Below the pieces are notes generated by a model. It was not told where the DNA came from. It made no database searches and was given only the letters and a program-made list of their open reading frames with translations. A stretch of 64,000 bases of DNA, from positions 2,108,001 to 2,172,000 of the forward strand of contig CM073201.1 of assembly GCA_037042915.1 (NCBI GenBank), written 5' to 3'. This document shows, piece by piece, positions 12,310 to 19,479 of this stretch. The stretch comes from Auricularia sp. M13. Taxonomy: Eukaryota > Basidiomycota > Agaricomycetes > Auriculariales > Auriculariaceae. How positions within the stretch are numbered: the first letter of the stretch is position 1; the number at the start of each line of letters is the position of its first letter. A program made the position numbers and the translations under genes.

Positions 12310-13100
12310 TTAGAGCCCGTTTGGGGTCACCACTCCGACGGTAGTGGTAGCGGTGCCGGAGCCCGTACCGGCTGTTCCGAGCTGATGCCGAGCTGCCGGC
12401 AGGACGCTCTGCTCGTCGTTGCGCTCGTTCTCGAGCCAATTCAGCTCTCCTTGCCCCCCAAACATCTGGATCTGACTAGAATACCTGAATATATGATTTA
12501 TTGAATAAAATCTTGCTGTAATATGCCCAATAGAACATGCTCTGCAACAAGTGCTCAGCGACGCAGTTTGCTCTGTGGCTCCCGCTACCCGCATGAATAG
12601 CGCTCTTCAAATCTAGCTTATGATGTGTTATTACTTCTAAATTTTCATTTGGTACGAAATCCAGACGGAAAACTGCCTGGGCAGACACCGGCTGGCTTAC
12701 TCATCGTCGAGGGCTACAGAATCCCTCCGTCCCGCATAGCTAACGCCGTAAAGCCGTCATTCAGTCGAGGAAAATATTCAACTAACGTTCGCATGCCTTA
12801 TATGCCTTGTTTTTGTGTTGGATATGCTCAGAGTCGCCGCCGTAAGGTCCCAAAAGTACAAATGCTAGCACATGCTACATTGCTCCTTTTTTCGTCGTTA
12901 TTATGAGCATTTTATCATTATAAGCTCTTATATAAGCTATATAAGACATATGAGGACAGGGCGAGCTGAATTGGCTCGAGAACGAGCGCAACGACGAGCA
13001 GAGCGTCCTGCCGGCAGCTCGGCATCAGCTCGGAACAGCCGGTACGGGCTCCGGCACCGCTACCACTACCGTCGGAGTGGTGACCCCAAACGGGCTCTTA
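12310..13100. mobile_element. PIF/Harbinger-like MITE, 785 bp, with 135-bp perfect TIRs
   Basis: The element spans 12313-13097. The first 135 bases (12313-12447) are the exact reverse complement of the last 135 (12963-13097). The ends read GAGCCCGTTTGGGGTCACC, close to the GGGCC/GAGCC-GTTTGG type ends of Tourist/PIF-Harbinger elements, and TTA flanks both sides (12310-12312 and 13098-13100), the usual 3-bp duplication of that superfamily. The 515-bp core has no recognisable gene, so it is non-autonomous. Its right end was later hit by the RecQ/DUF6589 element. Confidence 0.85.
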
Positions 13101-13101
13101 G

Positions 13102-13199
13102 CATACTCCTTCCCATGTGATAATACCCCGCGCTGGGTTGTTTGTCGTTGTGTGCACAAGGAACCGCCCGAAGGCGTATTATACACTGGTGACAAATGT
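13102..13199 (+). repeat. Left terminal inverted repeat of RecQ-DUF6589 element
   Basis: Pairs with 19252-19351 in inverted orientation. The outer 13 bases are identical and the repeat ends inward at GACAAATGT, 165 bp before the helicase ATG. The block TTGTGTGCACAA is nearly palindromic. Confidence 0.85.
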
Positions 13200-13363
13200 T
13201 ATTGCAACCGAGTGCATCCGCTCCGTGGGCTGAGTCAGCGAGCGAGCATGTGATGACCGGCTGCGCAGCACTCTGCTTTCTGCGTCGCGCGTTCATCGCG
13301 CTGACCAGCCCGCCCGCCGCGCCGCCCGTATACCCTCCCTAATCACTTTATCTCGTCCTAATC

Positions 13364-16120
13364 ATGACGCTACCCAACGTTCCGCGCGGAAACGCGCTCG
13401 ATAATCATGCTGCGCCCGAGACTGTTGCTGCTGCGCAGGACGCGCCGCTGCCAGCATCCACTGTTCGTGAACGCGCCCAGGACGCGCTGCTCGTGTCGCA
13501 ACCCAATCCAATCGATTACGAGGCCACACGAACGCGCTTTTTGGGTATGACTGGTATCGAGCTGTGCTCGTGGCAGGCTCTCGTTACGTTCCATTGCAAC
13601 CGCGGCGACAAGCACGTCTTTATGCTGGCACCCTGTGGCTCTGGCAAGACTATGGCTTTTCTGGCGACGCTGCTCTTTAACACACGCGATATCATTATCA
13701 TTGTCTCTCCGCTTCTGTCCCTTGGCCAGCAACATGTTCAGAACTTGCAGAAACTCGGAATCAGCGCCGTTGAGCTCTCTTCGAAGACAATATGCAACGA
13801 TCTGATCAGTGTACGTTTTCTACAGCCCACTGGATGCTCATCTTATATTTCATCAGCAAATCTCGGGCTGCTGTTACCGTGCTATCGTTGCGCCCCCAGA
13901 GATCGTCAACGGCGACGCTCGTGTCCGCAACCTGCTCAAAGTTCCTGCTTTCGCGCGAAATTTCAAGAGGCTGGTGCTAGATGAGATTCACTGCTTCATT
14001 GAATGGTCCGACTTTCGCCCGGAATACAAGAATTTCGACCTCTTCCTGTTCATGATGCCGCCGCATGCCAAGCTTCTCTGCGCCTCCGCTACGGTCACCG
14101 ACTCGCAACGCCTGCAGATAATGTCTAAATTACGCCTGAAATCTGACGACACCGAGCTGATCCGACTAAATAACGACTGCCCTAACCTGACGCTCGTTGT
14201 GACTGCTATGCCCGGAACGCCGTCTGATTTTCGTCCTCTCATCAATCTTCTGCCAGAGGATCCGGATCTCCTTGCGCCTGTCTGTGCTCCCCCGCCGAAA
14301 TTCATGGTCTTTTGCAATAGCAAGATGGACTGTGTGCTCGCTTGTCTCTTTCTGATGAACCAGCTGCCTCTCAACCACTGCGACAAGATCTGTTGGTTCT
14401 TTTCCGACATGAGCGACGGTTTCAAAACGCAAGCTCTCCAGGACCTCAAGGATGGGAAACTGTGGGGTATATTCTGTACTGATTCGGCTGGAATGGTGCG
14501 CTTTCCGACGATTATATGCGTTGACTCCAATTCTGTTTAGGGAATCGACGTTCCCGATATCCGCATCGTCGTACAGTGGGGTATCAAAAACCTCACTTTC
14601 AACACTCTTTACCAGCGTTTCGGACGTGGCGGCCGCGATCGAAGCCTCCAGGCGCTCTGCATATTATATGTCGAGACGGCGTACTGGCCCAAGGACGAAG
14701 AATCGACCGCGGTGAAGCGCGAAGCAGAGGATCAACACGACGGGGCGGCCAAACGGGTAAAGCGCGAAGAAGAGGAGGTAAGCCTACATGTCGAGCGGCT
14801 TATCAGACACTTACTAGGCAGATTGTCGAGTTACCCCCGCCGGCAGCGCCGTCAGCGACCGCCAGCCAGGCCACCTCTGCTACAGTCCCTGCGCAGCCGC
14901 CGCCATCTCGTATTCCCAAAAAGAAGGCACCGCGCGGTAAGGAGGTGGTCATTGACCCCGTCGTAATGTCCTTCGTGCGCTCTCCACCAACGGGCGATCC
15001 ACCTCAAACGCGCTGCCGCCGAACAACGCCCAGGAAGCACTTTGACAGCTGTAATGTGCTTGCCCCGGACCCCGAGTCGCCGGACTGCATGCGCTGTGTC
15101 GTGCACCAGCCGACGCTGTGCTGCGATCTGGATCTATATGACGAAGACGGCTCTCTTCCCGACGCAGTTCCTCAGTTCATCCGCCGCTTTCTCCTCGACA
15201 TTTTCCCGCCCAAGTCGACCGCTACACGCAAGACTGTGCCGCTGCGCAGTTATAAGCATGGGGCCAAGGAAGATAAACTCAAGTTAGCTCTGTATGCCTG
15301 GCGCAGGCGGCGATGGCAGGAACTCTACCCGGGCTCGAGTCTCGGTGCTACTGGTCTCGTTTCAGATGCTATTATTGCCCGTATTGCTCACGTTGCGCAC
15401 CGACTCATCTTTACGACCTCCGAACGGCTGGCTTTTGAAACTGACTGGGCTCTTGCACCAAAATTCGGGTCAGAAGTACTGGACATCATCGAGCTCCATT
15501 TTCCGCTCCGTCCATCGACACCCCCTCCCGTTCTAGAAGATATCTCTAACTCCACGCCAAACTCGCCTGTCAGGAAGGCGAAGGCAGCGCCAACCTGTAG
15601 TCTGTGTGTCAGTCACGGCGACACCGAGAATGCGGCTGGGCACCGCAAGGGTGCGATCCGTTGTCCCTACAAGGCCGAGTATGATGCTCAGAGGATGGCT
15701 ATGAAGACGGAGAGCCGGCCGGTGGAGATCCCACAGCCTTTGGCCGGTGCTGCTGTCGTCGTTGTGCCGTCGTCTCCGATTGCGGGCCCGAGTACACAGC
15801 CCATGCTTGCTTCGCCGCCTCGTACTTCTTACTACCGCGATGCAGGGAGCGCTCAGGCTGTGTCCACGCAACAGAGCTACTACCGCTCTGCTCCTAGTGA
15901 TGCGATTGCCGCTGCAGTCGCTGCAGGCTCACGGCTTCCGATTGCTGGACCATCGCGCAGTTCTGTTTTGCGGAGTGCTGTAGCGGGTCCATCTCAACAG
16001 CCCGCAGTCCCTCATGGTCTGCCTCCTGTACCCTATCATAGTATCTTTTCTTTACCTCGTGCTGCTCCTCTGGCTAACGCTCACGTTCCCCCATTCAAGA
16101 AGAAACGTTCTGTTACTTAA
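13364..16120 (+). CDS. RecQ-family DEAH-type DNA helicase, element-encoded
   Basis: ATP-dependent helicase of 873 aa from four exons (13364-13810, 13857-14495, 14541-14777, 14822-16120); all three introns are phase 0. The core has Walker A APCGSGKT (about residue 90), a DEIH box in LDEIHCFIEWSDFRPEYK (typical RecQ spacing), the SAT motif in CASATVT, a second RecA-like domain with FCNSK and GIDVPDIRIVVQWGI, and motif VI QRFGRGGRD. After the core comes a basic linker and a C-terminal region with paired cysteines (DCMRCVVH, LCCDLD) instead of a recognisable RQC/HRDC pair, then a Pro/Ser-rich tail ending in the basic FKKKRSVT. Related helicases are expanded in agaricomycetes. Here the gene lies inside an element with its own inverted ends, so it probably acts in mobilisation or repair of the element. 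Confidence 0.9.
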
Positions 16121-16135
16121 TTCTAGATACACTGG

Positions 16136-19100
16136 CTAATCCAATTCGAAGTCATCCATATCTACCTCAATCTCATGCTCGATCTCGGGCTGCCCAACAT
16201 CTAGCTGACCTGATTTACCGGTCATAAACATATTCAGGCCGACCGACATGGCGTCGGGGACCTGGTACTTGGCAGAGCGGCCAGGGACAAATTCCAACGC
16301 CTTGTCGGTGCGTATCTGCCGTCGAAGTCGATCCAAAGTCTCCGTCATATCTGCGGGAGCGTGTTTGGTGGTGCGGCCGACGAGATGGTAGTTGAGAACA
16401 AAATTGTTGAACGTCGTCTTGTAGAGCTTGATCAGCGGAGATACTTTGATCATCTGCTCTATTCCAAAATTCGACGAGGAGCCGCTGTGAATGACCTGAA
16501 ACCCAGAGTTTGAGAGGGAAAATGCGGCGAAGAAAGACATTACCTTGATGTAAAGGTTGAAGAGCTCGACAAGCCAGTCAACGCCGCGACCTCCAAGCCG
16601 CTTTCCTGACGGGTTGATGATCCAGCTCGTCAAGAAAGCCTCTCTTAGCTTGTCTGGCCAAACAACGGCCAGGTTGTAGAGAACGCGTGTCATGTGTGAA
16701 GCGTACTTATTTTTCCCCGCAGCGGCAAAGACGAAGAGAAGGTGGAAAATAGCAAGAGAAACGCGCCCGACGTCCTGCAGCTTGATTGAGTGGTAGAGGT
16801 CGGTGTGGATGAGCGTATGGGAGAGGAACAGGCGCCAGTTCTCGTTAATACAGTCACGTTCGTCGTCGGGCTTCTTGCGGCTCTCGTCGAAGTCTTTTCC
16901 GGCTACGTACTTGTCGGCGATGCTGTATGACATGGTCTTAATGACCTTCCATGCGTCCTCTGGCGTTCCGACACGTAGAAGGTGGGCGGCGAAGGCGTCA
17001 AGCGTTGTGCAGGTCGAGTCGAGATCGGTGGCCTCGCGTAGCCAACACTCGAGCAACAGACCGTTCATAATATTGGTGAACGAGTCGTGAGCTCTGCGGA
17101 ACGTCGGACCAGGCGACGAAGACTTGAACTTATTGTGGTCGACAGGTTTCGGTAAGAGAAGCTCTAGGTATTTGTAAACACTGGAGCTGTTGTCGTCGTG
17201 ACGCGCAGCGGACGGCAGCACATGGAGTCGAAAAATAGCGTCCTCACTGGCCATGGCTGTATGAAAGAGGCCTGGGACATCAACGACGCCCTTAAAGCGC
17301 GCCAGTGCAGTCGGTTCGATGCTGCGGAAAAGCTGCGCAGAGAGGATGCGCTCGGATCCACCAAGGTCGCCGTGGATGAAGGTGACATATTCCTCGGCGA
17401 TCTCATCGGTGATGCCGGTCTGCGCAAGCATACGCTCAACAGCTTCGATGGTCTCGCCAACCGTAGACTGGTTGAGGTCCATAGCGCGGAGGGGGTCCCA
17501 TTCGGTCTTGTGAGGAGGGATGACGCGCACCTCATCGGGATCGCCAAGAAACTTCGAGTAGCGAGCGAACTTTTTCTGCTGCTGCACGAGAACACGGCGA
17601 ATATAGTACGCATATGTCTCGGCGAGATGAGAGCGCGCATTTGGGTCTCTAGGGCGCGGATCGAGTCGGTCGGGGAAAGTCAAGAGTTCTTCGAAAGGCG
17701 GGTGCGATGGCTTGAGCTGACCATGTTGCCTGCGAATCTTGATTGCCGAGTTGGTCTGCCAGGTCAGGTTCGCAAAACGGAAGTGGTCGGGTGTGAGCGA
17801 GGGATGCGAGGAGATGTTGAGCGCTGAAATGGCGGAGCGGAAGATGCTGTCGCGTCCCGCGGTGGGCACCGCGACTTTCTCCATGAAGTTGAAATTATCA
17901 AAAGCCTTTTGAGAAGTCAGTGTGCGCCCCTGCAGAAGCAGTCGCTTCTCCTCCGCGCTGCTGAGAGACGTGACAACGCGATCGATGGATTTGTTGCTGA
18001 CCACGATACCCGCGTGATTGAGGATGTTAACGACGGCGTCGGAAACTTGCAGCATGCGGAAGAGAATGCCGTAGTTGACCTGTAATGCATTGCATTTCTG
18101 ATTTGTCCCTTGCTGCCCTTGTGAGAATATCTGGACGATCTTCTGTTGGATGTAAGTGAGGGTTCAATAAAACGAGCGGATTATGCACACACAATTGTTC
18201 TCAGTGCACTGATGCGGGCCTGAGCTTTCGAAGGGCCCTTCGCGCGCGCAGAGGGTGCAAGGCCCGCCGGCGGAGGTGCAGGGGCGTCGATGTCCATCGC
18301 ATCGACACCCGCATCAGCCGCAACGGCCTGCCCGGGTACCGCATCCTCATCGTCAAGCTCGTCGTCGAGTTCGTCGGCCTCGACCTGGTCGTCCGCAATA
18401 GCAATGAGGTCGAAGTGAGCGCCGACATCCTGAGAACCGACAATCCATTCGTCGAGTGCAGGAGCACCGGCAGACCGAGGGCGAGCGCGCCTAATGCTCC
18501 CTCTGGCATCCGTAATGCTCTCGAAGAGCTCCCAGAGATTTGGCGCCATCTGACGCAGCTTTGTAGCAAGATCGTCGATGTTGAAGGCGTCGAACTGCTC
18601 GGGCTGTGCGTGCAACGCGTTGGCATGGAATCCTGCGCTCTTGTGCGTGATACGAAGCATTTCCGCGGTATAGAACTGCCTGGCATATTGTAGTGCCCAG
18701 GCAGTGACGGCAGATTCGTTACGATGGGAAAGCAGGGGCAGAATTGATGGAACAGCAGCAGAGAGCGTCGCGGAAAGGTCAGGGCGCGAGCAGTCAAACA
18801 GTTCGAGCGCGAATTTGTCGGGGGAGACGCCTTGAAGGTCGAGAAACGCGAGGGTACGGTCGAACGGGGTGCGCGCGTCCCGCAGTAGCAAATTAAGCAG
18901 CAGCACGGCGTTGTCCCTCAGGCCTTGCCTAGCCGGTGCACAGCGCGCGTCATTCGAGCGCAGGAGGTCGACAAAGAGCTTCTGAGGCGTGTACTGTATT
19001 GCCTCGAGTGTATCAAGAGCAATGTAGGCCAGCGGCGGCGGTGGGTTGCACAGAAGCAACTGCACAATATTCCGACTTTGCAAGCGCAGAGCGTCGCGTT

Positions 19101-19209
19101 CCGACGCAATTAAATCGGCATTTGACTGCAAAATATCGCATATAAGGGTGGCGGGTGTGTATTCTAGAGCCTGCAGCGCGTCGAGCGCGTCGCGGACGCG
19201 TTGGGTCAT
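16136..19209 (-). CDS. DUF6589 protein, candidate transposase of the element
   Basis: A two-exon gene of 1007 aa. Exon 1 is 19209-18193, a 50-bp GT-AG intron is 18192-18143, and exon 2 is 18142-16136. Joining the exons keeps the frame (RTI then KIVQIFSQ). The N-terminal third is helical and rich in Leu/Ala, with an acidic patch and a Pro/Ala linker. The C-terminal two thirds match the DUF6589 pattern as I recall it, including the core FIHGDLGGSERIL, a following GLFHTAMASEDAIFRL segment, NIMNGLLLECWLREAT, and a C-terminal VDWLVELFNLYIKV block. The tail is acidic (EVDMDDFELD). Its stop is 15 bp from the convergent helicase stop. The family has no established function. Placement inside an element with TIRs and a target duplication makes it the best transposase candidate; HGD could supply a catalytic Asp. 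That last point is inference. Confidence 0.85.
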
Positions 19210-19251
19210 GACGGTAAGCAGATGAGTCAGCGCGTCTATTTTAGGTCCGGC

Positions 19252-19351
19252 ACATTTGTCGCCAGTGGTCTATACGCCCTGAAGGGGGTTTCCTTGTGTA
19301 CACAACGACAAACAACCCCGGCGCGTACTAGACCACAAGGGAAGGAGTATG
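19252..19351 (-). repeat. Right terminal inverted repeat of RecQ-DUF6589 element
   Basis: Inverted partner of 13102-13199. It contains the perfect 12-bp palindrome TTGTGTACACAA. The DUF6589 start codon lies 42 bp inward, so the TIR probably also acts as its promoter region. Confidence 0.85.
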
Positions 19352-19479
19352 GGCTCTTAGTGGCCTTGGACTATCGGTTGAGATACACTCGGCGGCGAAA
19401 GCAATTCTCCACAACATGCTGGCCTGTACAGCGCGCGCAAGATATTCTGCTTTGCTGTGTTTTCTGAGTTCTATCCTCA

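Follow-up and report, generated by a model that had tools for sequence, protein, structure and literature searches.

A RecQ helicase and a DUF6589 protein form the core of a mobile element, probably of the AcademH kind, in Auricularia sp. M13

What kind of mobile element carries a RecQ-type helicase gene and a DUF6589 gene between inverted ends in the fungus Auricularia sp. M13? The question is raised by a 64,000-nucleotide stretch of contig CM073201.1 (assembly GCA_037042915.1, positions 2,108,001 to 2,172,000; hereafter, the window), where a first-pass annotation proposed a candidate new family of DNA transposon at 13093..19360, with the two genes placed inside terminal inverted repeats (TIRs) and a 9-bp target duplication. 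We found that window positions 13102-19351 (6250 bp) are a complete mobile unit with inverted ends and two convergent genes, as had been claimed. It most likely belongs among the AcademH-type TIR DNA transposons, with DUF6589 as its transposase. AcademH is reportedly a lineage of the Academ superfamily described by Kojima in 2020 in Mob DNA 11:15.

The left TIR (13102..13199, forward strand) begins CATACTCCTTCCC and the right TIR (19252..19351, reverse strand) ends GGGAAGGAGTATG; CATACTCCTTCCC at 13102 has its complement ending at 19351. Inverted similarity between the two ends was 79% over ~98 bp, with blocks of 18, 35 and 27 nt. The target site duplication GGCTCTTAG flanks the unit at 13093..13101 and 19352..19360 and agrees at 9/9 bases, with 2/8 and 3/10 bases agreeing in the 8-bp and 10-bp registers, respectively. 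The left TIR matched four further places in the genome at 76-92% identity, the 92% match spanning 38 bp only.

Both genes were readable as open frames with introns of 44-50 bp each. The gene for the RecQ-type superfamily 2 (SF2) helicase (13364..16120, forward strand; introns 13811-13856, 14496-14540 and 14778-14821) encodes 873 amino acids (aa), and the DUF6589 gene (16136..19209, reverse strand; one 50-bp intron, 18143-18192), the proposed DDE transposase gene, encodes 1007 aa. Note that intron borders were set by eye, guided by splice-site consensus and the reading frame rather than by transcripts; a first helicase splice model of 481 aa was discarded, and the 873-aa model keeps the frame open. 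The spliced helicase matched DEAD (E=1e-18) and Helicase_C (E=5e-12) in Pfam, and contains the motifs GSGKT, DEIH and QRFGRGGRD. The nearest solved structures to a 225-aa piece of this protein were helicase Q1, RecQ and WRN, and the same piece matched TIGR00614 recQ_fam with an E of 3e-10, under the family cut-off. The other protein matched PF20231 (DUF6589; E=5e-75), the domain covering residues 171-601 of the 675-residue second-exon frame. A search of viral contigs found no relative.

We searched the genome (52.1 Mb, 14 contigs; loci are written as contig:position, with contigs C1, C2 and so on) for both genes. Such a genome, together with introns of 44-50 bp, fits a fungal host. DUF6589 was found at at least 21 loci (36 matches merged) and the helicase at at least 17 (19 matches to the 225-aa piece merged), the window copy being included in both of these lower bounds. 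Of the 17 helicase loci, 15 lay within ~5 kb of a DUF6589 locus, with the two genes on opposite strands in 15/15, whereas in 20,000 trials of random placement the number of adjacent pairs never exceeded 2. Eleven of the pairs are convergent and four are divergent, the latter standing head to head at C1:4942k, C1:3298k, C2:727k and C4:3542k. In sequence identity (63-68%), the window helicase is nearest to a relative at C3:145460-146384, where two of the three matched pieces contain stops and no DUF6589 match stands beside them.

When the ends of the convergent pairs were read, all 11 proved to be TIR elements of 5.7-12.9 kb, flanked by a perfect 9-bp duplication in nine cases, a 9-bp duplication agreeing at 7/9 in one and a 10-bp duplication in one. 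Two terminus types, CANNCTCCTNCCC and TAGNYT, occur among the elements. Six convergent elements begin CA(T/A)(A/G)CTCCTNCCC, namely, the window element and those at C2:932651-938395 (5745 bp, perfect 9-bp duplication GGATCGAAC), C8:2894478-2907405 (12928 bp, perfect 9-bp AGTGGCAGG), C6:226021-232314 (6294 bp, perfect 9-bp CCTCCGAGC), C9:1272714-1278647 (5934 bp, perfect 9-bp ACTCTGACC) and C7:2787295-2793209 (5915 bp). The five that begin TAGNYT are at C13:103605-109597, C11:955181-962253, C10:29050-36011 and C2:975215-981533, with perfect 9-bp duplications GCGCTTGGC, CGTTCCTCG, GGGTTTCCC and GTGGCTTGC, respectively, and at C3:2045704-2052749, with a perfect 10-bp duplication, GTGCCGGAGG. An automatic end scan, in which matched and mismatched flank pairs of 7/11 elements were compared under the criterion of a perfect 9-mer plus at least 12/14 terminal bases, singled out the elements on C6 and C13 and that at C2:975215. 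The last is the one pair whose ends were found by the scan alone, and it was reproduced in 0/200 shuffles. For C11, a first border at GAGGGG, which gave no duplication, was discarded, as comparison with C3 and C10 extends the element to TAGACTC/TAGATTC. The C8 element reaches 12.9 kb because the stretch from its left end to its DUF6589 gene is ~7.2 kb longer than in the near-identical C2 copy; a 257-aa frame in the C8 element had no match in Pfam.

Short elements with the same ends were also found. Eight of them, 184-572 bp in length, carry CANNCTCCTNCCC ends and perfect 9-bp duplications in 8/8 cases (C8:496882, C9:1475427, C10:3212161, C11:62440, C11:2507851, C8:1143425, C2:1853523 and C6:4196965). 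They are too small for both genes, so the element proteins would have moved them in trans. Over all 19 elements read at both ends, duplications were perfect at 9 bp in 17, perfect at 10 bp in one and 7/9 in one, and the 8-bp register was perfect in 0/19 (best, 6/8). The annotation had suggested searching this genome for the TIR and asking whether DUF6589 repeatedly adjoins RecQ within such ends and 9-bp duplications; the ends recur in the genome, beyond what chance would give, and the claim that the two genes form the core of a mobile unit was borne out by 11/11 convergent pairs and by the 15/17 helicase loci beside DUF6589. The pattern CANNCTCCTNCCCAG had 39 genomic matches, as compared with 11 for a reversed control; of the 39, 24 combine into 12 pairs and another is one end of a 13th element, which has a different sequence at its other end, leaving 14 without a partner. 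Given the 11 control matches, some of the unpaired ones are due to chance. For a lone left end at C2:215720, allowing as many as 4 mismatches gave 18 opposite-strand matches, of which 14 lay no more than ~8.8 kb downstream; all were rejected, as none had a flanking duplication when the flanks were read by eye. Another lone end, C2:1986919, had no partner within the 3 kb examined.

Insertion into a previously intact sequence was seen for one relative. The sequence flanking the window element on its left is a short transposon of 785 bp (12313-13097), presumably PIF/Harbinger-like, whose inverted ends are GAGCCCGTTTGGGG and whose 3-bp duplication is TTA. Further copies of this repeat were found at C8:452k (TCA) and C1:2364k (TGA), as well as on C3; these 3-bp duplications were identified by eye. 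Insertion of the window element took place at the right border of the repeat, and the final repeat bases are therefore also found beyond the element, at 19352. The element at C3:2045704-2052749 lies inside another copy of the repeat, ~50 bp from the spot equivalent to the window insertion. When the C3 flanks were joined, keeping a single copy of the 10-bp duplication, the resulting 245 bp aligned without gaps and with 97.1% identity to the uninterrupted repeat copy that adjoins the window element; this copy thus shows a clean empty site for the C3 element. A joined-flank search for the window element found its left flank in other copies of the repeat and the junction in none, giving no full empty site. 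Movement has been recent, since the copies at C2:932651 and C8:2894478 are 99.3% identical over 3.2 kb and the inverted ends of C6:226021 are 99.4% identical over 336 bp.

Inverted ends, duplications of fixed length, short copies consisting of ends only and the empty site together point to a DNA transposon of the cut-and-paste type. DUF6589 is the better candidate for its transposase because the helicase shows helicase domains only. We aligned DUF6589 from 17/21 loci, leaving out C3:2422k, C4:3537k and C5:3967k, which have short or split frames, and the C8 locus, which is near-identical to that on C2. In the numbering of the 675-residue second-exon frame of the window protein, D89 is conserved in 13/14 spanning rows, D266 in 17/17, H301 in 17/17 and E533 in 9/11. 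Judged from this conservation, D89, D266 and E533, with H301 between them, are a plausible D-D-E triad; D437, kept in 14/15, is an alternative third acid. The arrangement of D-D-E plus H somewhat resembles the C/DxxH signature noted for five other superfamilies (PMC9587614). On this reading, DUF6589 is a putative DDE transposase.

A working scheme can be proposed for this transposon. The DUF6589 transposase would bind the inverted ends, excise the element and insert it at a target cleaved with a stagger of 9 bp (10 bp in one relative), and host repair would fill the staggered gap, giving rise to the target duplication. The RecQ helicase would serve as the second element protein, which probably unwinds the ends or strand-transfer intermediates, or aids gap repair.

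Several observations weigh against parts of this reading. Two of the 17 helicase loci have no DUF6589 match nearby (C3:145k, and C8:1235k, a partial match at 27%), and 6/21 DUF6589 loci have no RecQ match nearby (C4:403k, C3:2422k, C10:633k, C5:166k, C5:4017k and C5:3967k); the latter are possibly decayed copies, or have a partner gene that is of another kind or more divergent. Of the 15 pairs, the 11 convergent ones were read at their ends. The border duplication of the C7 element agrees at 7/9 only, and the scan did not single this element out; a perfect 10-bp "duplication" that scans returned for C7 was rejected as a palindrome inside the inverted repeat. Furthermore, the scan did not separate C11, C3 and C10 from mismatched pairs. 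The ends of these three elements pair poorly without gaps, and their borders were placed by eye, on the basis of sister-copy comparison and the duplications and, for C3, the empty site as well. As for the transposase, a single-sequence structure prediction of DUF6589 was unusable (mean predicted local distance difference test score, 36.6), and a profile of the DUF6589 alignment searched against solved structures gave no transposase among its 11 matches (E 1.5e-6 to 0.012), which were all TAL or designed repeat proteins over a short helical stretch, none passing alone. Finally, the assignment to AcademH is drawn from anatomy, namely, RecQ, 9/10-bp duplications and TIRs, and homology between DUF6589 and the Academ transposase would have to be assumed.

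Published work bears on both the assignment and its rivals. The annotation had supposed that RecQ helicases were undescribed in DNA transposons. This was mistaken, as "RecQ Helicase in Academ" has been reported (PMC3627910), and 1,568 of 1,938 fungal Academ copies have recognisable protein domains, such as PF00270 and recQ_fam (PMC6416283). AcademH is characterized by duplications of 9 or 10 bp and a helicase, whereas AcademX has 3-4 bp duplications and a nuclease (PMC10045372). KolobokH, a fungal DNA transposon, encodes a transposase together with a RecQ helicase (PMC9587614). AcademH is present at low copy number in Basidiomycota, Ascomycota and Mucoromycota (PMC10799480), and putative non-autonomous Academ elements are described in Marasmius oreades (PMC8290104).

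The best surviving alternative is a distinct superfamily, in which DUF6589 would be a DDE transposase without kinship to that of Academ. Such a superfamily would have two kinds of terminus (CANNCTCCTNCCC and TAGNYT) and would have taken up RecQ independently, as KolobokH did; its mobility would account for how both protein families came to spread among mushroom-forming fungi. The KolobokH case shows that RecQ has joined more than one transposase lineage in fungi (PMC9587614), and homology between DUF6589 and Academ could not be shown; on the other hand, the 9/10-bp duplication and RecQ both agree with AcademH as published, and another superfamily combining these two features is less to be expected. 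We therefore consider a separate superfamily unlikely. It is far less probable still that the elements are Mutator-like elements (MULEs) whose transposase was lost or replaced: their 9-bp duplications and inverted ends of ~100-340 bp would fit, but Pfam scans of both window genes found no MULE transposase domain, in line with the annotation, and the same two genes recur in 11/11 elements examined, which is not expected of a broken MULE. An ordinary syntenic gene pair with inverted flanks and a direct repeat arising by chance has nothing in its favor beyond its prior and deserves almost no credence, given that paired ends and duplications occur in 19 elements, that insertion has happened repeatedly at unrelated sites, that there is an empty site for the C3 element and that shuffling failed to reproduce the C2:975215 pair.

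Taken together, mobility and the DUF6589/RecQ core are well supported, and assignment to AcademH, which the element resembles in the way it works, is probable. The annotation's "new family" was not supported at the superfamily level by the tests made, as RecQ transposons with 9-10 bp duplications are already published as AcademH; the part of that claim that may be new is the role of DUF6589 as a likely DDE transposase. The word DUF6589 was not found in the literature collection searched, which is incomplete, and the string PF20231 occurred only in four papers with unrelated titles; within that limited collection, this agrees with the annotation's view that DUF6589 is undescribed as a transposon core. 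If this reading is right, DUF6589 would pass from a Pfam family without an assigned function to a transposase, and helicase genes that are now attributed to the host in such fungi would belong to transposons. The recent copies, 99.3% alike, and the short copies with ends only make a transposition assay feasible, and such an assay could address the task of the RecQ helicase in a cut-and-paste transposon.

MULEs have ~9-bp duplications and long inverted ends, and Kolobok elements duplicate TTAA. The present elements are like MULEs in both of these features and unlike them in carrying a RecQ gene and no MULE transposase domain. Zisupton (KDZ) elements make 8-bp duplications (PMC12730594), which none of our 19 elements showed in perfect form. 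Agaricus bisporus and other fungi have subtelomeric RecQ helicase genes (PMC7473861), which are, like those found here, multiple and limited to the helicase core; however, the genes in Auricularia sp. M13 lie inside TIR elements, mostly far from contig ends, and are paired with DUF6589. KolobokH is likewise a RecQ-carrying DNA transposon, but the duplications here are 9-10 bp long and of varied sequence, not TTAA. The closest likeness is to AcademH, compared here by its published description: the two share a RecQ-type helicase, TIRs, both duplication lengths (9 and 10 bp), low copy number and hosts that include Basidiomycota fungi.

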